A DNA stretch of 64,000 nt from Olivibacter domesticus. GTDB lineage: Bacteria; Bacteroidota; Bacteroidia; Sphingobacteriales; Sphingobacteriaceae. The first letter of the stretch is position 1; every line of letters begins with the position of its first letter. Below, one piece after another: positions 6,353 to 62,552 of the stretch. The DNA lies in assembly GCF_900109575.1 (NCBI RefSeq), contig NZ_FOAF01000001.1, positions 496,001 through 560,000 on the forward strand, read 5' to 3'. The notes under the pieces were generated by a model that saw nothing but the letters and a program-made list of their open reading frames with translations, was not told where the DNA came from and searched no databases. The position numbers were made by a program, and so were the translations under genes.

Positions 6353-7666
6353 CTAAAAGACAGGGTCACTTGGTGTATTCGTATTATTATCCCGTTCAAC
6401 AAATGGGTAAGGGAAGAAATTACGTTTCATTTCATTCTGTGGCCGATTAAATCTACGCATGTCTTCGAGTTTCAACCCAGACATAAATAGCTCGATACAT
6501 CTATTTCTATAAATTTGAGTCAAAAGCTCTTCATTGCTGATGCTAGTCAGTGCGGGTAAATCGGCCCCTACACCAAAGATATCTTGACCAGGCATTTTGG
6601 TAATGACTTTATTTAACTCAACTAGGGCCAGATCGTATCGGGAAGTACGAGCATAAGCTTCTGCTTTAATAAGAAGCATCTCTCCAGGCAAGTAAACAGG
6701 TATACGGGAGGTTGGCGTAAATGCAAAACCTTTAATACGCACAGCTGGCGGGATAGGGTTGTCATTTTGTATATAAAATAAAACCCGTTTGTCTGCCATT
6801 TCGGGATATAAGCCTTGCGGAAGCCCTAAATTGACGTCCTTCGGTTGAAAGACATTATTCGTGGAGGTAGCAAAGGTGTATATGGGATTGGACGAAACGT
6901 TATCGTAAGCGAACATTGATTTTTTTGTCAAATCAACAGCATTTGCAGCTATCAAAGCATTTTCATAGTCTCCAACATATAGCGAATAACGCGCTTTAAG
7001 CGCATTCAATGTATTTAGAATATTAATGCTACTATCTGGAAGATTTATTAGAAATGCATTGCTTATTTCATCGGTGGCCGTATAATTTAAAGCGCTATCA
7101 ATGCTTTTTATGGCTTCCTTGTATCCGTCCATTCTGTCTATAAAGGGTATATTTCTGCCAATACCTACGGGTACTTTTTCCCAGTACATTGATAGGTTTC
7201 CCATTGATAAAGCTTTGGAAATAGTGGCATATGCAATTAAGCCGCTTGCAAGGTTTTTATCACTTAAGTTCTTGGCGTTTGCAATTACCAAGTTAGCGTC
7301 ATAGATAATTTTATTACTACTGGTCCACAAACCTGCTAAAACTGTATTTGTTCCATCTACAGTGGCCCCCCCTGTACTCAGTTGCAGCTCAGGAATATTT
7401 CCTTCATTTCGTAGCAGTAGTTCATTTGTCACAAATCCATTAGCTGTTACATAGTTATAAATATTACTGGTTCTTTCAAAGCTGTATCTCCTTTGGAGAC
7501 CAATACTGATAGTTGTTAAGCCTTGAGGTGATGATAGTGCATCATCATCCAACGCCCTCGAAGGATCGATGTAATCTTTCGTACATGAAAAATTGATATA
7601 AGTAAGCGCTAGGCAACATAATATAGTTAACGCTCGTTGTATGTTAATTCTGTTCATCTCGGTCAT
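6353..7666 (-). CDS. SusD/RagB-family outer-membrane lipoprotein
   Basis: A 437-residue SusD homologue with a lipoprotein signal (LTYINFSC, Cys about 28) followed by TKDYIDPSRALDDDAL. The C-terminal part has the usual SusD/RagB block with helices reading LPGEMLLIKAEAYART and RNRCIELFMSGLKLEDMRRF (about 325-415). It is somewhat short for the family (often 450-550). The start lies 22 bases after the SusC gene at 7689-10772, so the two form an operon that ends in the terminator at 6304-6347. A second ATG three codons in (MNRINIQ) is an equally good start. Substrate unknown. Confidence 0.92.
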   Translation of the reverse strand: MTEMNRINIQRALTILCCLALTYINFSCTKDYIDPSRALDDDALSSPQGLTTISIGLQRRYSFERTSNIYNYVTANGFVTNELLLRNEGNIPELQLSTGGATVDGTNTVLAGLWTSSNKIIYDANLVIANAKNLSDKNLASGLIAYATISKALSMGNLSMYWEKVPVGIGRNIPFIDRMDGYKEAIKSIDSALNYTATDEISNAFLINLPDSSINILNTLNALKARYSLYVGDYENALIAANAVDLTKKSMFAYDNVSSNPIYTFATSTNNVFQPKDVNLGLPQGLYPEMADKRVLFYIQNDNPIPPAVRIKGFAFTPTSRIPVYLPGEMLLIKAEAYARTSRYDLALVELNKVITKMPGQDIFGVGADLPALTSISNEELLTQIYRNRCIELFMSGLKLEDMRRFNRPQNEMKRNFFPYPFVERDNNTNTPSDPVF

Positions 7667-7688
7667 TTTTGAGGTTTGCTAATTAAAT

Positions 7689-10600
7689 TTATAATTTCAC
7701 CTGAATACCTAATGTAAATGTTCTAGGGATTGGAATGGCACCAAAATCTATTCCTCTGAGTATGGTCGACTGTCCTCCTGCATTGACTTCAGGGTCGTAA
7801 CCTTTATATTTGTCGAAGGAGAGTAGATTTCTGCCGCTGGCATTGATGGTCAAGTCTTTGAAAAATTTAACCTTGCCGAAGTTATAACTTAAAGAAACTT
7901 CTCTCAGCTTTACATAAGAACCGTTATCAACGCGCCATTCTTCAACAGCGTATGCACCTGCAATATAACCCCTAGGTAGCTCGCCCATTTGTTCTTGCTG
8001 TGCCATTAATCCATTTCCCACGCCCTGTCTGGTTCTCCAATCAGCATTCCAAACATCAACACCTCGTACAGCATCAAATTGAAGGTGCAGGGATAGTTTT
8101 TTATACGTGAAATCGTTCACAAAGGTTAATGTATAATCTGGATTTGGATCACCAATTACCTTACGCAAAGGGGTTCCGGTAGGCATGCCGTTTTCATCAC
8201 GTTGTGGGGTTATCTCGATGCCGTTTTGAGTTCCGCGCTCAATCATTGGGATTCCTTGTGCATTTGTTAATAAGCTCCCATCAGAATTTCTCGCAAAAAA
8301 TGTCCCATAAAATACACCGATTGGTTGTCCGTCAATAATAGCAACTGGTGCCCCCGGGTTGGTAGTGAATAAGCGTAAACCGCCAACATCCAGGGCTTTA
8401 TTGCGATTGCGACTGTAAATAACAGAGGTGTTCCACGAGAAATTAGTGTTTTTGACAGGAGCGCCATTCAGTACTAATTCAATACCTCGGTTCTGCAAGG
8501 AACCAACATTATCCAAAAAACTGGAGAATCCTACTGTAGGTGCTTCCACCCTGGATATCAATAAATCAGTTACTTTTTTATTGTACCAGTTGAAGCTCAA
8601 ACCTAAGCGATTGCTAAAAAACGACAGATCAGTTCCCAACTCAAGCTCTGCCTGTCTCTCGGGTTTTACATTTTCATTTGCTAGTGTAGCGCTTGAGAAT
8701 AACGATACTCTACTTAAGAAAGTTTGAGAAGAATAAGCATTGTAACGATCGTAAGCTCCTATTCCTGTTAAGTTTCCGGATTGTCCATATGCAGCTCGGA
8801 CCTTAAATAAATCCCACCATTTGCTCATAGCAGCGTTTTTCCAGAAATCTGCGGACGACAATACATAGCTACCACTTCCTTTTAGGTAAACTTGTCGGCG
8901 GTTATCTTTACCAAAAACGGATGACTCGTCCACCCTAATTGCACCTGTAAGAAATAACTGGTCCCTGTACTTAAAGTTTTGTTGAAAGTAAGCTCCGCTT
9001 ACGGAATATTCCGTCCGGGCATCCATACCCGGTAAAATAGCACTAGCAGCATTCACTGTTTCAATGAAAGGTGCTAACCCTCTTCCATTCAGCATATTAT
9101 ATTTTGATTTTTCATACTGATAAGAAAAACCCAATTGAGAGGTCGAAGAAATTAAATCTGAAATATCTGCCGTAAAGGTGGCGTTAAATTCGTTATTGAT
9201 GAGAAAAGCAGAGTTGCTTGCAGTACTGGTATAGCCGTTGAGTGTGGGAGCTAGGTTTGCACCACCTCCCCAGAAATCTGGATTAGCATTGTAGGTATAA
9301 GGTGGAATATAGGTAGTACCCGTTTGGCCAGTATTATCTACACCCACTGTAAAATCAAGTGATAAGTTTTCAATGGGAGTGAGCTTTAACCCTAAGTTTC
9401 CTAACACACGGTTTACTTCTTGGCGTTGCTTGATATCTTCAATAACTGACACCGGGTTTATTCTTCCTCTTTCACCTACCGATTTTAAATTGCCATCTGC
9501 GTCCCGTGTAAAGATGTCATGGTAATTCGCTATGATATTGATTGAATTGAGCGGTGAGTAAAATGAGTTTCCATCTGGTTTCTCGTCTGCGCCACTATTT
9601 GTATAGTTCAGCCCGGCTGTAAAGCTTATCCAGTCGGCAAGTTTCTGATCAATATTGGTACGTAAACTGAACCTTCTAAAATTTGTATTTCTAACAATTC
9701 CCTGATTGTTAAAATACGATGCGGAAACATAATACTTGGTGTCGTCTTTTCCCCCTGCAACCGAAACATTGTTATCCGTGCCACTAGCATTTCTGAAAAT
9801 GTAATCTTGATAGTCATAGCGGTTAACTGGAGAAGTTGTCGTAAGCGCTGTATTCAGTACATCTTGCGTTTCTAAGTCGACCGAACCCCCAAATTTTACG
9901 GGCGACTGGTTTACTGCTACTTTTTTCCGTAAGTTGCTATTCATGTAGTTGGTAGAAAAACTAACTACTGGAGCACCCAACGAACCTCTTTTAGTAAAGA
10001 TCTGTACAACCCCGGCATTTGCCCGTGAACCATAAATTGCAGCTGCTGCTGCACCGTTCAATACTTCAATTCGTTCAATGTCTGCAGGGTTAATATCAAC
10101 TAGGCGATTTTGACCGATACTTCCAACGAAGTTGCCGCCGTCATAACCGGGCTGTGTATTAGTAACGCGTGTGGTGTTATTATTTACGATAATACCATCT
10201 ACAATGTAAAGCGGTTCGGAAGACGAATTCACAGAACTTATCCCTCTTAATCGCACAGAAATCCCGCCTGCGGGGTCTCCAGAATTTTGCGAGATTTGAG
10301 CACCTGCTGTTTTTCCTTGCAAGGATGATAACACATTTCCACTTCTTCCTTTGGTAAGGTCGTCACCCTTTATAGAACTGATGTAACTTCCCAGTTGTTT
10401 CCGTGTGGTTCCGGCAGAGGTGCCTGTTACAATTACCTCATCCAGGCCTACCAGATCAGCGCTTAATTCGCAATTTAATACGTTGTTGCCTGTCGCAAGA
10501 GCAATGTTTTTGGTTTCGGTTTTATATCCCGTATAGGAGAATATAATTTCCTGTTGTTTTACAGATTCATTTAAGCTGAGCGTAAATTTTCCATCCACAT

Positions 10601-10772
10601 CGGTGGAAGTGCCTAAATTAGAATTTTTTATTTTCACAGATACACCTACTAAGGCTTCCTGCGTGTTTCGGTCTGTTACACGACCGGAGATAGTTGTCTG
10701 TTGTGCCTGCGCAATCTGGCAGCAAAACAGACAACCGATTAGTAATAAATAAATCGATTTGGCCATAAACAA
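7689..10772 (-). CDS. SusC/RagA-family TonB-linked outer-membrane receptor
   Basis: A 1027-residue TonB-dependent receptor with a signal peptide ending at AQAQ (about residue 24), a CNA-B/carboxypeptidase-regulatory-like domain (about 26-110), a plug with PLYIVDGIIVNNNTT (about 190-205) and AAAIYGSRANAGVVQIFTKR (about 240-260), and a 22-strand-type barrel. It is first in an operon with the SusD gene at 6353-7666. It is divergent from the DeoR-type regulator at 11088, which is the obvious candidate regulator. The sequence is clearly diverged from the SusC at 2882-5965, so a different ligand is likely. An ATG two codons in (MAKSIYLL) could also be the start. Confidence 0.95.
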   Translation of the reverse strand: MFMAKSIYLLLIGCLFCCQIAQAQQTTISGRVTDRNTQEALVGVSVKIKNSNLGTSTDVDGKFTLSLNESVKQQEIIFSYTGYKTETKNIALATGNNVLNCELSADLVGLDEVIVTGTSAGTTRKQLGSYISSIKGDDLTKGRSGNVLSSLQGKTAGAQISQNSGDPAGGISVRLRGISSVNSSSEPLYIVDGIIVNNNTTRVTNTQPGYDGGNFVGSIGQNRLVDINPADIERIEVLNGAAAAAIYGSRANAGVVQIFTKRGSLGAPVVSFSTNYMNSNLRKKVAVNQSPVKFGGSVDLETQDVLNTALTTTSPVNRYDYQDYIFRNASGTDNNVSVAGGKDDTKYYVSASYFNNQGIVRNTNFRRFSLRTNIDQKLADWISFTAGLNYTNSGADEKPDGNSFYSPLNSINIIANYHDIFTRDADGNLKSVGERGRINPVSVIEDIKQRQEVNRVLGNLGLKLTPIENLSLDFTVGVDNTGQTGTTYIPPYTYNANPDFWGGGANLAPTLNGYTSTASNSAFLINNEFNATFTADISDLISSTSQLGFSYQYEKSKYNMLNGRGLAPFIETVNAASAILPGMDARTEYSVSGAYFQQNFKYRDQLFLTGAIRVDESSVFGKDNRRQVYLKGSGSYVLSSADFWKNAAMSKWWDLFKVRAAYGQSGNLTGIGAYDRYNAYSSQTFLSRVSLFSSATLANENVKPERQAELELGTDLSFFSNRLGLSFNWYNKKVTDLLISRVEAPTVGFSSFLDNVGSLQNRGIELVLNGAPVKNTNFSWNTSVIYSRNRNKALDVGGLRLFTTNPGAPVAIIDGQPIGVFYGTFFARNSDGSLLTNAQGIPMIERGTQNGIEITPQRDENGMPTGTPLRKVIGDPNPDYTLTFVNDFTYKKLSLHLQFDAVRGVDVWNADWRTRQGVGNGLMAQQEQMGELPRGYIAGAYAVEEWRVDNGSYVKLREVSLSYNFGKVKFFKDLTINASGRNLLSFDKYKGYDPEVNAGGQSTILRGIDFGAIPIPRTFTLGIQVKL

Positions 10773-11087
10773 TTAGGTTAAGTGTTAAAATGGGACATTG
10801 GAATGCTGTGCATAATGTAATGCTGATTAGTTTTTCAGTATTAATTCCCCAGAGTTTAAGAGATGCGCTCAGCACGTTTTTCAGTTTTAAATTGGATAAT
10901 ACAAGTATAGGAAAAAAAATTATGTTTGCAATATTTTGCGTTTTTTATTTAAACTAATACCTAAAAACGCATATCTAATGATTTCCTTTTAAAACGCTCG
11001 GTATTTCAGGAGTTGTTAAGCAATGTTAAGCAGCTATTTGAAATCATGATAAAACCATTATATTTACCTTTAATTAATCAATTCCTT
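10773..11087. promoter_or_regulatory. Divergent promoter region, SusC / DeoR-type regulator
   Basis: About 315 bases lie between two divergent starts. The region holds TGCAATATTTTGCGTT (10927-10942), a two-mismatch relative of the motif found before the other SusC genes. An inverted half-copy, AAAACGCAT, lies about 35 bases away (about 10974-10982). The frame of the DeoR gene is open from 11013, but its conserved sequence starts at 11088. Confidence 0.4.
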
Positions 11088-54627: not shown

Positions 54628-54781
54628 TTGAATATAAATAAGACGAATGCTAATATTAGAAAGCATTACTACAATATTAGTGAATTTTATAAATCAACAC
54701 GTTGAATTTTATTTTTGTTTGACATTACTTTCTATGTATCCCTATCCCTAACATTTATCTTTGGTCTTTGATAAGGGACAA

Positions 54782-55630
54782 ATGAGAAAGATTAAGCAAA
54801 TGGCAGACCATCTAGGTACTTTGGTCGCACGTAATAGTGAAGAATTGAGTGCTCCTTTGTTCGATTATTTATTCTATTCCCCTAAACTTCCATTACGTCA
54901 ACATCAGCAGGGTTTATTAAATTCGGCAAGAAATGAGCAAGTGGAAGTTTTTGATGAGTATTTTGAAAACAAGACGCTTAAAATGAATGTCTTTATTTGG
55001 GGTCAAGGCAATGAAATTATCCTACTGACACATGGCTGGGCATCTAAAGCGGCAGATTTTTCTGAGCTAGTTGATAGCCTAATGCAACATACAGTATATA
55101 CAATAATTGCCTTCGATGCCCCTGGAAATGGTTCCTCCGAAGGTGGTCTAACTAATTTAATGTTATATGTAGGCACCATTTACAAAATTGTTGAAAAATA
55201 TGGTTATCCAACAACCCTTATTGGGCATTCATTAGGGGCTATGGCAAATATTATAGCGTATAAAAATTTGAAGAAAAAACCGAAGACGCTCATTAGCCTC
55301 GCACCATTGATTCAGTTAGATGACTATTTTAGGACTGAGATGACTCAAATAAATATTCCCAATGCTTTTATAGATCAGTTTTTTATCGACTTTTTCCAGT
55401 ATTTTAATGTAGAAGCGGATGCTTTCGACCTAAATAAATTATATAGTTACACGTGCGAAAACCATTGGTTGTTTTGTGATGATAATGATAAAATTTCTCC
55501 ATATAAGCTAACGGAAAATTTTTTAGGCCGAAAAAGAGACATAAAGTCGAAATTATTTAAGGATGTAGGCCACCAGCATATGATCAGAAATAAGCAAGTC
55601 ATTGCCGAAATAATCGAGTTAGTTAAATAA
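54782..55630 (+). CDS. Alpha/beta-hydrolase
   Basis: A 282-residue alpha/beta-fold hydrolase. The oxyanion strand LLTHGWASKAADF (about 83-95) precedes the nucleophile elbow GHSLGAM (Ser150). The acid is probably an Asp in CDDNDKISPYK and the base His lies in DVGHQHMIR near the C-terminus. It has no signal peptide and about 60 extra N-terminal residues. I chose the ATG at 54782; the frame is open to a TTG at 54761. Substrate unknown. It is two genes from the biotin operon, so a BioH-like (pimeloyl-ACP methyl ester esterase) role is conceivable, but it is not in that operon and no bioC is present. Confidence 0.82.
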   Translation: MRKIKQMADHLGTLVARNSEELSAPLFDYLFYSPKLPLRQHQQGLLNSARNEQVEVFDEYFENKTLKMNVFIWGQGNEIILLTHGWASKAADFSELVDSLMQHTVYTIIAFDAPGNGSSEGGLTNLMLYVGTIYKIVEKYGYPTTLIGHSLGAMANIIAYKNLKKKPKTLISLAPLIQLDDYFRTEMTQINIPNAFIDQFFIDFFQYFNVEADAFDLNKLYSYTCENHWLFCDDNDKISPYKLTENFLGRKRDIKSKLFKDVGHQHMIRNKQVIAEIIELVK

Positions 55631-55637
55631 GCATGAC

Positions 55638-57125
55638 TTAGAATGATTCTTCTATTGAAATTTTTAAAATCTGTATCGCTTCAGTTAATTCGTCTATAGT
55701 TAAATTTCCAAATCCTAAACGCATAGCCGTAGTCAGCTCATTTTGATAAAGCAGGGTGGATGGTAAATGCAACCGATGCTTTAAACAATTCTTACTAACA
55801 CGCATGAGGTTCAGCTCTTTTTTCCATGTTGACCATAAGGCTAAGCCCCCTGGGGGAGATTTAAACTTTACATAGTCATCTAGATGCTCTTTTAATAAAG
55901 AAGAAAGATGTAAAGAACGCTGTTCATAAATTTTTAATGCTTTTTTAAGATGTCGATGAATCTCTCCGTCCACCAGAAGCTCTCCTAAAGCTTGTTCCAT
56001 AAGCATATCACTTTGCCTATCAACAATCCGCCTATATCTTCCAATTTCTTCAATCAGGTTTTGAGGCGCCACAATATATCCCGAACGTAGGCCAGGGGCT
56101 AAGGTTTTGCAAAATGATCCGATATATACCACCATGCCCATACTGTCGGCACTAGCTAGCGGAAGAACGGGACTACTGGTATAGTGGAAGTCGTAGTCAT
56201 AGTCATCCTCCAATATAATAAATCCATACTTACTGGAAAGGTTTAGTAATTCTATGCGTCGCTCCGCACTAAGTGTAACAGTGGTAGGATAATGATGGTG
56301 AGGGGTAATATATACGATACGTACTTTCTGTTTCTCACAAAGGTTTTTTATTGCTTCTACGGAAATCCCTTCATGATCTACGGGAACAGCATGTATTTGA
56401 GCTCCCGCTTGTTGAAAAATCATGTTGGCAATATAATAACTTAGATTGCCTACTACGACTAAGTCTCCGGAAGAAATCAATACACCCGAGGCTAAGAATA
56501 TGCCCATATGAACGCCTCTTGTGGTGAGTATATTTTTTTTTGAAATATGCAAACCGCGCGTATTATTCAAATAATAAGCCAAACTTTCCCTGTAGAATTC
56601 ATTGCCTTCGATGTGAGAATACCCTAAGTGCTGGCGGCTGGTCTTTCGTCTTAACACCCCCCCATATATTTTACCTAACTTATCAAGAGGCGCTATCCGA
56701 ATATCTGGAAGACCGTCGGTAAATGCTAAGCGGTTATCAGATAAAGTTGGCGGATTATCCAAAAGAATGTTTCTTTTAAAATGAAAACCAGCTTTTTCGG
56801 GATAACTTGCTAAATAAGTGCTGTCATACTTTAATGGGTCAGGATTCCCTTTATTAGATTGATTAGAAATAAACGTGCCTTTATTCGGTATAATGGATGT
56901 CCAGCCCTGTGTGTACAATTCCTCGTAAGCAGCTATGATCGTTTTCCGATGTATTCCTAACTCCTCACTCAATGATCTTGTACCTGGGAGCTGTATCTCT
57001 GTCACTAATACTCCTCTTTGTATGGCATTAATCAACTGTCGTGCAATTTGAAGATATAAAGGTGTACTGCTCTGCTTGTTTAAAACAATTAAACTTTTAA
57101 AGGGAATTTTTACCGGACTACTCAT
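55638..57125 (-). CDS. MocR-type regulator (GntR winged helix + aminotransferase-like domain)
   Basis: A 495-residue fusion. The N-terminal GntR winged helix is at about 15-90 (TRSLSEELGIHRKTIIAAYE). The C-terminal fold-type I aminotransferase-like domain (about 115-490) carries the PLP Lys340 in GSFCKTLAPGLRSGY and Asp308 in ILEDDYDYDF. It is divergent from the biotin operon (77-base gap with a near-palindrome), so it is the likely regulator. Its sensor fold is related to BioF and BioA, both PLP enzymes, which would suit sensing of a biotin-pathway amine or of PLP. That link is inference; PdxR-type control of vitamin B6 genes is the alternative, but no pdx gene is adjacent. Confidence 0.9.
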   Translation of the reverse strand: MSSPVKIPFKSLIVLNKQSSTPLYLQIARQLINAIQRGVLVTEIQLPGTRSLSEELGIHRKTIIAAYEELYTQGWTSIIPNKGTFISNQSNKGNPDPLKYDSTYLASYPEKAGFHFKRNILLDNPPTLSDNRLAFTDGLPDIRIAPLDKLGKIYGGVLRRKTSRQHLGYSHIEGNEFYRESLAYYLNNTRGLHISKKNILTTRGVHMGIFLASGVLISSGDLVVVGNLSYYIANMIFQQAGAQIHAVPVDHEGISVEAIKNLCEKQKVRIVYITPHHHYPTTVTLSAERRIELLNLSSKYGFIILEDDYDYDFHYTSSPVLPLASADSMGMVVYIGSFCKTLAPGLRSGYIVAPQNLIEEIGRYRRIVDRQSDMLMEQALGELLVDGEIHRHLKKALKIYEQRSLHLSSLLKEHLDDYVKFKSPPGGLALWSTWKKELNLMRVSKNCLKHRLHLPSTLLYQNELTTAMRLGFGNLTIDELTEAIQILKISIEESF

Positions 57126-57137
57126 TAAGTTAAAACT

Positions 57138-57155
57138 GGACTATATATGTCGTCC
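57138..57155. promoter_or_regulatory. Near-palindrome in the mocR / bio divergent region
   Basis: GGACTATATATGTCGTCC matches its reverse complement at 14 of 18 positions, with GGAC/GTCC outer arms. It lies 13 bases from the mocR start and 11 bases upstream of a -7-like TACTTTTG, so a bound protein could affect both genes. Confidence 0.45.
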
Positions 57156-57165
57156 GGCAAGATAC

Positions 57166-57173
57166 TACTTTTG
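57166..57173 (+). promoter_or_regulatory. Probable -7 element of the biotin operon (TACTTTTG)
   Basis: TACTTTTG matches TAnnTTTG and lies 29 bases before the first gene of the operon. No clear TTG is found 19-20 bases upstream, as might be expected of an activator-dependent promoter. Confidence 0.5.
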
Positions 57174-57202: not shown

Positions 57203-57847
57203 ATGTATTCACTTCACCATAAAAACGAGGAAAAGCTTTATTCGCTATTTAAAAATATCGTGGCTGACGACAAGATACACGCTAAATTTTTAAATACTTT
57301 GTCTTTGTTAGAGAACACCGGAGCACGAAAAATTTCTGCCTCTGAAGATATGGAAGTAGTAACGTTAATGATGCTAAAGCATGCAGCAGAAGAACATCGA
57401 CATGCGTTTTATTTAAAGAAACAGATCCAAAAATTGCGGGTTGAATCGTGCCAGACTTACACCAAGACGGACCTTTTAGCCCCTCAGTCAAGTTTACAAT
57501 ACTTGAATAGGCTTGACATGCATACTAGTAAATATTTAAAGAACATATTGGGTTTGTCGGGTAGTAAGCTTCGATTTGCAGCTTATTTATTAGTCACCTA
57601 TGCGATAGAGCTAAGGGCCGATCAATTGTATCCAATTTACCAAAAGGTACTTCATACAGCTTTAAGTAAAGTGAGTGTGAAGTCAATCATTTTTGAAGAA
57701 CAAGGGCATTTAGAAGAGATGGTTTCACAGCTAAAGGAGTTTTCATCTAATTGGCAGGAGCATGCGGGAAAGATCCAAAAAATTGAAGAAGAACTTTTTT
57801 ATCAGTGGATAAATCATTTAAACGTTTCTGTAAATGATCGAAATTAA
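57203..57847 (+). CDS. Ferritin-like diiron protein heading the biotin operon
   Basis: A 214-residue, almost wholly helical protein that I cannot assign to a named family. It shows the full diiron ligand pattern of ferritin-like oxygenases: Glu37, then Glu64-x-x-His67 in AAEEHRHAFYLKK, Glu136 in YAIELRADQ, then Glu166-x-x-His169 in FEEQGHLEEM. Spacings of 27, 72 and 30 residues fit a four-helix bundle. The 3' end overlaps bioF by 14 bases, so translation is coupled and a biotin-linked role is likely. No bioC, bioH, bioI, bioW or bioZ is nearby. An oxidative step towards the pimeloyl precursor is one possibility, but function is inference. An iron-storage or rubrerythrin-like role is less likely given the operon. 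Confidence 0.8.
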   Translation: MYSLHHKNEEKLYSLFKNIVADDKIHAKFLNTLSLLENTGARKISASEDMEVVTLMMLKHAAEEHRHAFYLKKQIQKLRVESCQTYTKTDLLAPQSSLQYLNRLDMHTSKYLKNILGLSGSKLRFAAYLLVTYAIELRADQLYPIYQKVLHTALSKVSVKSIIFEEQGHLEEMVSQLKEFSSNWQEHAGKIQKIEEELFYQWINHLNVSVNDRN

Positions 57848-58946
57848 TATGCTTTTGGAGGCTAAGGTAAGACAGCGTGAAACGATGGGATCATCGAGGA
57901 AACTGATACTTCAGCCAAACTTAGTCGACTTTTCGTCGAATGATTATTTTGGGTGGGCGCGTTCTCCGGAAATGAAGACATACCTAAAGTCAATAACTCA
58001 AGAAAACACACATTTAACGGTAGGTTCCACAGGATCTAGATTACTCACCGGAAATAGCGAGCTAGCGCTGGATATTGAAGAAGAAATTGCTGCATATCAC
58101 CAAGTGGAAGCCGCGCTACTGATGTCTTCAGGTTATTTAGCAAATCAAGGCTTACTAGCTGCTTTGGGGGTAAAAGGGAGCAATATTATTCGAGATGAAT
58201 ACGTGCACGCCTCTTTTATTGATGGTTGCCGCTTAAGTTTTGCCAGAAACCTGCATTTTAAGCACAATGATGTAGCTGATCTTCAGTTTAAATTGGATCA
58301 ATGTAAAGGCTTATGTTATGTGGTAGTAGAAAGTCTTTACTCTATGGATGGTGATTTTGCTCCATTGACTGATTTGGCCCGTCTGTGCAAAGAAAAAGGT
58401 GCTTTGCTGATTGTTGATGAAGCACACGCCTTAGGCGTATACGGTGCAGGAATCGTCCAATCAGGATACCTACAGAGCAATGTCTTTGCCCGTACAATAA
58501 CCTTTGGTAAGGCTTTAGGCGGCCAAGGCGCCGCTATATTGGGAAGTCGCACATTGAAAAGGTTCCTAATTAATTTCTGTCGCCCTTTAATCTTTAGTAC
58601 TGCGATGTCTTTCCCCCAATTATTTGCTATAAAAGCAGGATATCATCTGCTAAAGAAGAATAATGAAATAGCAGAACTGCTCCAGCGAAAATGCAACTTG
58701 TTTGTTGAAGAGATGGGATTTCCACAACAAAATGTTCTTCTGAGTCCGATACAAGCTGTTAAAATAGCCGGAAATGCGGCAGTTGACCATGCTGCTTCTA
58801 TCTTGAAAAGTGAAGGTTTTGATGTCAGACCTATAAAGAGTCCTAGTGTTCCCAAAGGTGGAGAACGTTTAAGAATATGCATACATGTATTTAATAGGGA
58901 TGAAGAAATTATTGCATTGACTAAGCTTCTGCGATCAATTTTATAA
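57834..58946 (+). CDS. bioF: 8-amino-7-oxononanoate synthase
   Basis: A 370-residue PLP enzyme that joins pimeloyl-ACP or -CoA with alanine in biotin synthesis. The Schiff-base Lys226 is in TFGKALGGQGAA, Asp195 and His198 are in VDEAHALGVYG, and the substrate-binding GSTGSRLLTGN lies at 64-74. It begins inside the 3' end of the diiron-protein gene (overlap 14 bases). A second ATG at 57849 is possible. Glycine C-acetyltransferase is the near relative, but the bio context decides. Confidence 0.94.
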   Translation: MIEINMLLEAKVRQRETMGSSRKLILQPNLVDFSSNDYFGWARSPEMKTYLKSITQENTHLTVGSTGSRLLTGNSELALDIEEEIAAYHQVEAALLMSSGYLANQGLLAALGVKGSNIIRDEYVHASFIDGCRLSFARNLHFKHNDVADLQFKLDQCKGLCYVVVESLYSMDGDFAPLTDLARLCKEKGALLIVDEAHALGVYGAGIVQSGYLQSNVFARTITFGKALGGQGAAILGSRTLKRFLINFCRPLIFSTAMSFPQLFAIKAGYHLLKKNNEIAELLQRKCNLFVEEMGFPQQNVLLSPIQAVKIAGNAAVDHAASILKSEGFDVRPIKSPSVPKGGERLRICIHVFNRDEEIIALTKLLRSIL

Positions 58947-58954
58947 AAACAAGC

Positions 58955-59587
58955 ATGCGAGAAAAAAAAAGCATAAAACCATTATTTATCACCGGTATCG
59001 GTACCGACGTGGGGAAGACTATTATCTCTGCCATCATTACGGAACAGCTAAAAGGAGATTACTGGAAACCTGTGCAAGCAGGAGACTTAGCTAACAGTGA
59101 TAGCGACCGAGTGAAATCTTTAATCTCCAACAGTTATTCAAGAGTCCACCCAGAGCAGTTTAAGCTAAAACTGGCGGCTTCACCCCATAAAGCAGCATCT
59201 TTGGAGGGGATAGAGATCAAACCAGTAGATTTTATTGTTCCTAAAACGAATAATCGCCTTATCATAGAAGGAGCCGGTGGATTAATGGTACCATTGTCGG
59301 CTAATTTTTTTATGATAGATCTTATAAAATTAGTAAATGCCGACGTGGTACTAGTTGTTAGGAATTATTTGGGATGCATCAACCATACACTCTTATCGTA
59401 TGAGTTGTTACGCATGAAAGGGTGCACGGTTAGGGGCCTGGTTTTTAATGGCCTTATGGACGAAGCTAGTAAATTGGCCATCTGTAATTATGTGTCCGAT
59501 GAAGTAAAAACGTACTGTATACCCGAAATATCTCCCCTTACGAAACAGACCATTAGTCAACTAAAATTCTTTTTTAATCATATATAA
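58955..59587 (+). CDS. bioD: Dethiobiotin synthetase
   Basis: A 210-residue ATP-dependent carboxylase closing the ureido ring. The P-loop is GIGTDVGKT (14-22) and the second conserved block IIEGAGGLMVPL is at about 104-115. The Lys in YWKPVQAG (about 35-42) is also conserved. It lies 8 bases after bioF and 9 bases before bioB. Length normal. Confidence 0.95.
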   Translation: MREKKSIKPLFITGIGTDVGKTIISAIITEQLKGDYWKPVQAGDLANSDSDRVKSLISNSYSRVHPEQFKLKLAASPHKAASLEGIEIKPVDFIVPKTNNRLIIEGAGGLMVPLSANFFMIDLIKLVNADVVLVVRNYLGCINHTLLSYELLRMKGCTVRGLVFNGLMDEASKLAICNYVSDEVKTYCIPEISPLTKQTISQLKFFFNHI

Positions 59588-59596
59588 AAAATTACG

Positions 59597-60568
59597 GTGA
59601 ATAACATTGAACAAATCCGCAATGATTGGTCGATAGAAGAAATAAAACTATTGTACCATGAACCCCTATTAGAGCTCGTTTATAAAGCAGCAACTGTTCA
59701 TAGAACTTGGCATAGTTCATCAGCAGTGCAGGTATGTACCTTACTTTCTATAAAGACTGGAGGTTGTACTGAAGATTGTGCTTACTGTGGTCAAGCAGCT
59801 CGTTATCATACCAATATAACAGTAAAGGCCTTAATGGATAAAGAGGAAGTACTTTCCATTGCCGCTCGAGCAAAAGCATCGGGGTCGTCACGTTTCTGTA
59901 TGGCCGCAGCTTGGCGCGAGGTACGTGATAACAAGGACTTTGAACGCGTATTGGAAATGGTAAAAGGAATAAACGCATTAGGTCTAGAGGTTTGTTGCAC
60001 TCTAGGTATGTTAACGGAAACTCAAGCCGAGCGATTGCAAGCAGCTGGGCTATATGCTTATAACCATAATTTGGATTCTTCTGAACGCTATTATGATGAA
60101 ATTATTAGTACTCGTATATATGGCGACCGGTTAAATACCTTAAATAATGTTCGTAAGGCCGGTATATCAGTATGTTGTGGTGGTATAATTGGATTAGGAG
60201 AAACACATGAAGATAGAATTGGCATGTTACATACCTTATCAAATTTACCTCAACATCCCGAATCTGTGCCTATCAACGCACTGGCAAGAGTGCCTGGAAC
60301 ACCATTGCAAGATTTAACGAAGGTAGATGTTTGGGATATGGTACGAATGATTGCTGTTGCTAGGATTCTAATGCCAAAAGCAATGGTTAGATTAAGTGCA
60401 GGTCGGTCAGAAATGAGTACCACGGAACAGGCCTGGTGCTTCATGGCGGGAGCTAATTCTATTTTTACCAGTGAAAGTGAAGAGTTACTGGTGACACCTA
60501 ATCCGAAGCTGGATGAAGATCGTGCAATGTTTGAATTGTTGGGTTTAACCCCATTAAGTAATAAATAA
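59597..60568 (+). CDS. bioB: Biotin synthase (radical SAM)
   Basis: A 323-residue enzyme that inserts sulfur into dethiobiotin. The SAM-cluster Cys57, 61 and 64 are in CTEDCAYC; ligands of the sacrificial 2Fe-2S cluster lie in [21 protein letters not shown] and [11 protein letters not shown], with Arg in VRLSAGR. The start is a GTG at 59597, chosen because the family N-terminus extends there and no ATG fits. It lies 9 bases after bioD and 24 before bioA. Confidence 0.96.
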
Positions 60569-60592: not shown

Positions 60593-61864
60593 ATGTCAAC
60601 TAATTTGTCCGAAAGAGACGCCGAGGTAATTTGGCATCCTTATACGCAAATGAAGAATAACATGCCCGCGATTCCTATTGTAAGGGGAGAAGGTGCCTAT
60701 GTTTATGGCGAGGATGGTCAGCGTTATATCGACGCAATTTCTTCTTGGTGGGTAAATATCCATGGTCATGCTCATCCTTATATTGCAAATAAAGTCTTTG
60801 CTCAATTTAAAAAATTGGAACACATGATGTTTGCGGGTTTTACGCATTCACCTGCCGTGGAGCTTGCTGAACGATTGCTAGACCTACTTCCTTCTTCACA
60901 AAAGAAAGTGTTTTACTCTGATAATGGCTCTACTGCCGTAGAAGTAGCACTAAAGATGTGTGTACAATATTGGTATAATAAAGGGCAGGCGCGTAAGAAA
61001 ATCATCGCATTTAAAAATAGCTATCACGGAGATACCTTTGGGGCGATGGCGGTAAGTGGCCGGAGTGTTTGGACTGCACCTTTTGAAGGATTAATGTTCG
61101 ATGTGCATTATATAGAAACACCAAATAGAAATAATATTACTCAATTACTGGAAGAAATTAGTCAGATACATCAGGAAGTCGCTTGTTTTATTTATGAACC
61201 GATTGTTCAGGGTTCGGCAGGCATGCTAAGCTATGAAGCAGCACTCTTAGATAAATTGATGAGTCACTGCAGCACATTAAATGTTTTATTGATACAAGAT
61301 GAAGTCTTTACCGGCTTTGGGAGAACAGGTAAGTTATTCGCTGCGAATCATCTTCAGCAACAGCCAGATTTTATGTGTTTTTCCAAAGGACTTACAGGTG
61401 GCGCTTTACCCTTGGGAATAACTAGCTGTGCACAATATATTTATGATATGTTTCTTTCAGATGATTCCTATAAAACATTATTTCATGGGCATTCTTTCAC
61501 TGCTAACCCACTTTGCTGCGCCGCAGCGCTGGCAAGTTTAGACCTGCTATTAACAGAAGAAACGCAGCAAAATATACAACGTATTTGTTTACAACATAAA
61601 GGGTATATGGAACGGATAAGCTTGCATCCTAAAATAAAGGGGATACGCTGTATAGGAACGATTTTGGCATTAGAATGGGAAACAGGAGAAGAAACTTCTT
61701 ATTTTAGTAAAAATAGAGATAAACTTTATAAATACTTTATTAACAAAGGTATTATACTTAGACCATTAGGTAATGTTATTTATGTTTTACCACCTTATTG
61801 TATCCGCTATGATGATCTTAATTATATCTACGATGTGATAAGTAGTGCACTTGAGAAAATCTGA
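60593..61864 (+). CDS. bioA: Adenosylmethionine-8-amino-7-oxononanoate aminotransferase
   Basis: A 423-residue class III aminotransferase that makes 7,8-diaminopelargonic acid with SAM as amino donor. The opening block IWHPYTQMKN, the Tyr in NSYHGDTFGAMAVSGR (about 142-157), Asp236 in LIQDEVFTGFGRTG and the PLP Lys265 in CFSKGLTGGALPLG are all BioA-like. Length is normal. Last gene of the operon. Confidence 0.95.
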   Translation: MSTNLSERDAEVIWHPYTQMKNNMPAIPIVRGEGAYVYGEDGQRYIDAISSWWVNIHGHAHPYIANKVFAQFKKLEHMMFAGFTHSPAVELAERLLDLLPSSQKKVFYSDNGSTAVEVALKMCVQYWYNKGQARKKIIAFKNSYHGDTFGAMAVSGRSVWTAPFEGLMFDVHYIETPNRNNITQLLEEISQIHQEVACFIYEPIVQGSAGMLSYEAALLDKLMSHCSTLNVLLIQDEVFTGFGRTGKLFAANHLQQQPDFMCFSKGLTGGALPLGITSCAQYIYDMFLSDDSYKTLFHGHSFTANPLCCAAALASLDLLLTEETQQNIQRICLQHKGYMERISLHPKIKGIRCIGTILALEWETGEETSYFSKNRDKLYKYFINKGIILRPLGNVIYVLPPYCIRYDDLNYIYDVISSALEKI

Positions 61865-61982: not shown

Positions 61983-62552
61983 ATGACTTTATACGTAAAA
62001 AATATGGTATGCAACCGTTGTATAATGGTTGTCAAACAAATTTTAGATGAATTAAATATAAGCTATACTTCTGTAGCTCTTGGAGAAATAAATAGGCAGA
62101 ATGAGTTACCTAAAGCTGTTCATGAGCAATTAAGAGAAAAGTTAGGAGCGGTTGGGTTTGAGTTACTGGATGATCGTAGACATAAATTGGTTGAGAAAGT
62201 GAAAAACATTCTGATTGAACGTCTCTACGGAACAGAAGGAATGTCAATAAAAATAAATTTTTCTACCTTCCTGCAGCAGGAATTAAATATCGACTATAAT
62301 TATTTAAGCAACCTGTTTTCACAAACAGAAGGTGTGACGATAGAGCAGTTCGTTATCATGCAACGTATTGAACGGGCAAAGGAATTGCTTGTGTATGATG
62401 AACTTACGTTGAGCGAAATCGCTTACAAATTAGATTATAGCAGTGTACAGCATTTGTCTACACAATTCAAGAAAATAACCGGGCTAACGCCTTCGCATTT
62501 CAAATCTATTAAAGAAAAGAAACGGAAACCTATAGATAACCTTCAAGGTTAA
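61983..62552 (+). CDS. AraC-type regulator with N-terminal HMA-like domain
   Basis: A 189-residue protein. The first part reads MTLYVKNMVCNRCIMVVKQI, a ferredoxin-like heavy-metal-associated fold with a CxxC (Cys10, Cys13), about 65 residues long. A short linker leads to an AraC-type helix-turn-helix domain (about 110-175; AKELLVYDELTLSEIAYKLD and SSVQHLSTQFKKITGLTPSH). Such HMA-AraC proteins are common in Bacteroidota and poorly characterised; metal sensing is plausible but unproven. It stands alone, with an 18-bp perfect inverted repeat after it. Confidence 0.85.
   Translation: MTLYVKNMVCNRCIMVVKQILDELNISYTSVALGEINRQNELPKAVHEQLREKLGAVGFELLDDRRHKLVEKVKNILIERLYGTEGMSIKINFSTFLQQELNIDYNYLSNLFSQTEGVTIEQFVIMQRIERAKELLVYDELTLSEIAYKLDYSSVQHLSTQFKKITGLTPSHFKSIKEKKRKPIDNLQG

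Follow-up and report, generated by a model that had tools for sequence, protein, structure and literature searches.

A probable bioE gene for a ferritin-like diiron oxygenase in the biotin gene run of Olivibacter domesticus, divergent from a putative bioL repressor gene

A recent paper (Adv Sci 2025; PMC12915131) describes a way to the pimeloyl part of biotin that bypasses the BioC-BioH route: BioE, a diiron oxygenase of the ferritin-like kind, cleaves long-chain acyl-ACP/CoA between C7 and C8 to yield pimeloyl-ACP/CoA. The same source credits the discovery of BioE to a 2025 study in PNAS (doi 10.1073/pnas.2501226122) and describes the action of the enzyme in Elizabethkingia and Chlamydia, with O2-dependent cleavage, iron and the rescue of E. 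coli bioC/bioH mutants. The BioE mutants and assays in print demonstrate pimeloyl production, and the BioF of Elizabethkingia (EmBioF) accepts pimeloyl-CoA alone in vivo (PMC12915131). BioI, a P450 from Bacillus subtilis, does the same job of converting acyl-ACP to pimeloyl-ACP (PMC12915131) but is a haem protein from another family than BioE. The bioE gene is repressed by BioL, a MocR-family protein studied as EmBioL and said to sense 8-amino-7-oxononanoate; mutation of either R50 or K340 (the PLP lysine) of EmBioL gives a bioL phenotype (PMC12915131). Among the matches listed in a literature search on BioE and BioL, PMC12915131 was the only paper devoted to BioE.

We analyzed a 64,000-nucleotide stretch of an O. 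domesticus contig (NZ_FOAF01000001.1), hereafter the window, which carries the following features:

55638..57125, minus strand: bioL, putative MocR-family repressor gene (GntR HTH plus PLP aminotransferase-like domain; Pfam GntR and Aminotran_1_2), divergent from bioE
57136..57167, plus strand: candidate BioL operator CTGG-N14-CCGGCAANATANTA, proposed from its conservation in bioL-bioE gaps
57166..57173, plus strand: -7-box-like TACTTTTG, identical in 18 of 22 gaps (counted by eye)
57203..57847, plus strand: probable bioE, ferritin-like diiron oxygenase, 214 aa, ATG start (ORF, ligands, paper-named residues and AF2 model)
57834..58946 (alternative start 57849), plus strand: bioF, 8-amino-7-oxononanoate synthase (TIGR00858 the best family)
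58955..59587, plus strand: bioD, dethiobiotin synthase (TIGR00347, above cut-off)
59597..60568, plus strand: bioB, biotin synthase (TIGR00433, above cut-off)
60593..61864, plus strand: bioA, adenosylmethionine-8-amino-7-oxononanoate transaminase (TIGR00508, above cut-off)

The ORF list and family scores confirm the initial annotation of a 214-aa, all-helical protein encoded directly 5' of bioF in a bioF-D-B-A run. The match of bioF to TIGR00858 (306.9 bits) is below the cut-off of 426.45. The 14-base overlap that had been described between bioE and bioF holds if bioF starts at 57834 and disappears if it starts at 57849, where an ATG in frame with bioF follows the bioE stop immediately. Where relatives carry bioL, bioE and bioF together (18 loci), the candidate bioF starts include positions that overlap bioE slightly and others a few bases past it, so tight linkage of the two genes recurs whether or not the exact overlap is kept. 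All five genes are in one run in the window, whereas Elizabethkingia has separate bioEFD and bioBA promoters (PMC12915131). The bioL gene adjoining bioE was missing from the initial annotation. Aminotransferase-family matches with the same score and frame length were also noted on two contigs (G000:C8:23105-24142 and G000:C22:16204-17241), a pair that stems either from recent gene duplication or from the assembly itself.

The ligands assigned initially to the window protein (E37, E64xxH67, E136 and E166xxH169) are all present and conserved among its relatives. Residues E37, E64, H67, E136, E166 and H169 are invariant in 14/14 sequences of one set (A1) and 47/47 of another (A2), both of which include the window protein. 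We compared the protein to BioE from Elizabethkingia meningoseptica (EmBioE) and Chlamydia psittaci (CpBioE) at the residues named in the available part of PMC12915131, using one fixed offset for each rather than a full-sequence alignment. The ligands of EmBioE (E26, E53, H56, E125, E155 and H158) and CpBioE (E41, E68, H71, E140, E170 and H173) (PMC12915131) have the same 27/3/69/30/3 spacing as those of the window protein, which matches 6/6 ligands in each case. In total, 13 of the 18 residues named for EmBioE and 16 of the 23 named for CpBioE are identical. The match extends to the four acyl-pocket residues of EmBioE that were mutated in inhibitor work (L22, Y117, I124 and L131; 4/4 identical), and a further docking residue (M25) is replaced by L36 (PMC12915131). 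The acyl channel of CpBioE is identical at 9 of 11 positions, the exceptions being W33 (F29 in the window protein, a residue found in 14/47 A2 sequences) and L205 (Q201). The window gene also shares with the genes for EmBioE and CpBioE a biotin gene context with bioF. Because the six ligands, their spacing, the acyl channel and the gene context all match, the gene preceding bioF is very probably bioE.

This assignment bears on the proposal in the initial annotation that a diiron oxygenase takes the place of BioI and supplies BioF by cutting an acyl chain. The mechanism was a good guess, as it is the published role of BioE in Elizabethkingia and Chlamydia and the gene very probably matches that enzyme. 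Its description as an undescribed biotin-pathway enzyme does not stand: BioE is already in print, with the window's family (Sphingobacteriaceae) named among the carriers (PMC12915131).

Within the phylum, 14 of the 395 genomes sampled have a bioE homologue, as do 3 of 5 genomes of the window's genus, counting in both cases the window's own genome. The 13 relatives are 54–62% identical to the window protein by the search and 53–61% by the alignment. A scan of a species-genome collection yielded 506 confirmed bioE stretches, the best 80 of which were retained; these are mostly from Mucilaginibacter or Pedobacter, and records close to the window's genome were possibly excluded. E37, E64 and H67 are present in 80/80 retained loci, and E136, E166 and H169 were checked in the 46 that entered A2. 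As homologues occur in 14/395 phylum genomes and in 506 confirmed stretches, the conservation of the predicted bioE ORF is not due to chance. For comparison, the BioE search in PMC12915131 required >40% identity to EmBioE with 85% coverage. Plasmid records contained no BioE match. PDB sequence searches retrieved no homologue with the BioE profile or with the single protein, which gave two weak matches (E values of 0.28 and 1.2), and NCBIfam has no family for the protein at E≤0.1.

The AlphaFold2 model of BioE, built with 47 sequences, predicts seven helices with a mean pLDDT of 91.5 and a pTM of 0.89. Foldseek returned 0 matches to the PDB at E≤0.001. Realignment of the Foldseek list with VIA-align placed an ADO-type protein first (5ux1_C; Z of 16.9, 2.4 Å over 178 residues) and MiaE second (2itb_B; Z of 16.4), although helical bundles may reach such Z scores from their arrangement alone. 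Cyanobacterial ADO crystal structures scored between 13.7 and 13.9, level with TenA/haem-oxygenase-like proteins (12–14). The comparison with ferritin-like folds suggested in the initial annotation predicts a ferritin-like fold with ADO-type proteins and MiaE as the nearest neighbours, a likeness of fold only. ADO-type proteins and the MiaE tRNA hydroxylase share this fold with BioE at 13–14% identity but have other substrates and reactions. The ADO-type neighbours of the predicted model agree with, but do not prove, the cADO comparison in PMC12915131.

We also examined other routes to pimeloyl in the genome (6.78 Mb; completeness 100, contamination 4.17). The genome-wide search covered BioC, BioH, BioG, BioW and P450. 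The genome had no match to the pimeloyl-CoA synthetase domain of BioW and none to cytochrome P450, and therefore no BioI. BioG was also absent; the control set was silent, yet 82 of 395 phylum genomes have a BioG match to this model. The best genome matches to BioC (78.5 bits) and BioH (85.4 bits) were below their cut-offs of 184.95 and 206.95, respectively. The initial observation that no pimeloyl-making gene lies nearby thus extends to the whole genome for BioG, BioW and P450 and, with none above cut-off, for BioC and BioH. BioC was also above cut-off in 0/26 further genomes (15 with bioE, 11 without). The absence of BioC thus does not set bioE genomes apart and, because all 11 bioE-less genomes were also below cut-off, the BioC model may miss members here. 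The 14 BioE genomes and the 82 BioG genomes have no overlap, but 80 of the latter belong to one family (f18), so we attribute this apparent mutual exclusion mostly to kinship. An alpha/beta hydrolase gene adjoins bioL in the window (54761-55630). As a BioH candidate it was rejected, with 34 bits versus the cut-off of 206.95.

The product of the gene divergent from bioE (55638-57125) has PdxR (NCBIfam NF052282) as its nearest family, with 308.6 bits and a cut-off of 320. It shares with EmBioL the GntR and PLP domains, as known here from sequence, and the bioE neighbour, and it has the same residues with the same numbers at R50 and K340 (PMC12915131). The protein is very probably BioL, a putative repressor. 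To define its candidate operator, the pattern CTGG-N14-CCGGCAANATANTA was derived from 22 divergent bioL-bioE gaps. It is present in 22/22 of these gaps (12 with 0, 9 with 1 and 1 with 3 mismatches), a match that shows conservation and is not an independent test. At ≤2 mismatches the pattern was found in 0 of the 73 other loci, 11 of which have scattered 3-mismatch copies. The window site (57136-57167) is the single exact copy in the 6.78-Mb genome, and 2-mismatch sites occur elsewhere 4 times compared with 1 for the reversed control. A repeat finder detected in the operator a 9-base direct repeat, a 71% inverted repeat and two 6-base palindromes. The block runs into TACTTTTG (57166..57173), which resembles the Bacteroidetes -7 box, TAnnTTTG. 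If TACTTTTG is such a box, the operator would overlie the promoter. We infer that CTGG-N14-CCGGCAANATANTA is the BioL operator. The site may already be known, as the published EMSA probes were described as ~50-bp palindromic promoter sequences (PMC12915131).

Gene neighbourhoods were compared across 95 loci (L039-L133) with score thresholds applied, some of the stretches being short. The loci are not independent; L039 and L060, and likewise L040 and L072, are apparently the same contig under two ids. The stretch contained bioL or another bio gene in 90/95 loci. The most frequent arrangement was bioA followed by bioE with no bioB in the stretch (64/95). The full order of the window (bioL, bioE, F, D, B, A) was found in 16/95 loci. 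The other arrangements were bioL-bioE-bioB (4/95), bioA-bioE with bioD/bioF beyond (3/95), bioL-bioE-F-D (2/95, both short and from the window's own genus), bioE-bioF (1/95) and bioE alone (5/95). The bioA-bioE pairs (e.g., L072 6729-8606) are mostly from Mucilaginibacter and have neither an adjacent bioL nor a candidate site. Among 5 genomes of group g4, a bioL match (E≤1e-60) was missing in 3 and was located elsewhere in the genome, with 43–44% identity, in 2. When the ORFs of five reference loci were compared to the 95 loci, no dedicated electron-transfer partner recurred beyond bio genes and general Mucilaginibacter neighbours.

Three related genomes have no BioE match. In one from the window's genus (G397), the matching locus (L139; G397:C93:68000-86000, 7654-11002) retains the hydrolase gene, bioL (77%), the candidate operator without a mismatch, bioB (74%) and an AraC gene, and bioE, bioF, bioD and bioA were not found there. 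The retained hydrolase is 49% identical to that of the window. The AraC-type regulator gene lies 3' of bioA in the window (61983-62552) and 3' of bioB in L139, where the next gene resembles, by eye, one for a heavy-metal ATPase. In a genome from the window's family (G359), bioL (48%) adjoins bioB. The operator scan identified no site in this bioL-bioB gap, which, judged by eye, contains a comparable block whose spacer is shorter.

The third genome (G396) is also from the window's genus. At its locus (L140; G396:C35:48000-64000, 7277-10721), a gene for a 52% BioL-like MocR protein is divergent from a TonB-dependent receptor gene, and a candidate operator site (1 mismatch) stands where the receptor gene starts, at the junction with the BioL-like gene. 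The BioL-like protein retains R50, and its PLP lysine was unplaced by a motif search. In this arrangement, BioL may control the uptake of biotin or of a precursor. The operator copies in L139 (exact) and L140 (1 mismatch) come from later loci outside the derivation set and are independent support for the candidate operator. Because the site and bioL precede bioB alone in G397, and the site lies between a BioL-like gene and the TonB-dependent receptor gene in G396, we tentatively suggest, with more doubt than confidence, that BioL and CTGG-N14-CCGGCAANATANTA make up a regulon that persists after the loss of BioE and that BioL may switch cells from the making to the importing of biotin or a precursor, with the bioA-bioE pairs of Mucilaginibacter operating without an adjacent BioL.

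Could the ferritin-like protein instead protect the oxygen-sensitive BioB, as the initial annotation had considered, or scavenge iron or peroxide in the manner of a ferritin or rubrerythrin? The predicted fold is ferritin-like, the protein has a weak match to Rubrerythrin (Pfam PF02915; 17.9 bits, E=0.0041) that is below the Pfam cut-off of 22.8, and bioE lies directly with bioB in the 4 bioL-bioE-bioB loci. However, G397 and G359 keep bioB beside bioL with no BioE match, which argues that BioE is not needed for bioB and led us to reject the role of BioB protector. The 64 loci that pair bioA and bioE with no bioB in the stretch also speak against this role, as does the pimeloyl production by published BioE (PMC12915131). 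We consider a protective or scavenging function extremely unlikely. The distribution fits a pimeloyl supplier better than a BioB guardian: BioE accompanies the early steps and is dispensable where bioB stands alone.

A BioE-family enzyme with a shifted substrate or cut (e.g., another carrier or chain length) was also weighed, as the charged carrier surface differs. Most of the paper-named residues that are not identical in the window protein belong to this carrier-binding surface, formed by F24, R31, K32, K46, R87, Q88 and H91 in EmBioE and F39, K46, K47, K102, Y103 and D106 in CpBioE, and rescue by CpBioE is lost when any one of its six is changed (PMC12915131). Only 3/7 of the EmBioE and 1/6 of the CpBioE surface residues are identical in the window protein, positions that are variable in close relatives too. 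At the position of EmBioE R87 and CpBioE K102, the window protein has a leucine (residue 98; 57494-57496), where 12/14 (A1) and 44/47 (A2) sequences have K or R. Yet the protein keeps all ligands, the EmBioE acyl-pocket residues and the equivalents of three EmBioE surface residues (R42, K43 and Q99 in window numbering), and its L35 and N102 are the norm among relatives (45/47 and 44/47 in A2). Moreover, the carrier surfaces of EmBioE and CpBioE themselves differ (PMC12915131). A shift in substrate or cut is, in our estimation, very unlikely.

We regard it as highly probable that 57203-57847 is bioE, supplying pimeloyl to BioF, with BioL as the divergent repressor. Counting against this reading are the empty Foldseek result at E≤0.001, the cADO crystal structures that score no better than TenA-type proteins, the few identities on the carrier surface and the substitutions at CpBioE W33 and L205 and EmBioE M25. 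BioE would bind two irons in its ferritin-like helical core, accommodate long-chain acyl-ACP or acyl-CoA in a hydrophobic channel and use O2 and an electron donor to cleave the chain between C7 and C8 to pimeloyl-ACP/CoA. BioF would then join pimeloyl to alanine, and BioA, BioD and BioB would complete biotin. BioL would repress the operon from the site between bioL and bioE and respond to the product of BioF. Our evidence consists of gene order, ligands, residue matches, predicted fold, route absences and a conserved intergenic site; cleavage, the need for O2, iron and repression were shown in other species, and by analogy the window orthologue would do the same as EmBioE and CpBioE.

PMC12915131 counts BioE as a fourth way in which the pimeloyl moiety of biotin is made, and the authors of that paper regard the enzyme as a drug target. 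To this our analysis adds the candidate operator, the BioE-less genus-mate locus and the bioA-bioE pairs without adjacent bioL. The window locus, as one more probable case of BioE in the Sphingobacteriaceae, is useful for comparing enzymes with differing carrier surfaces and for testing the predicted BioL operator.
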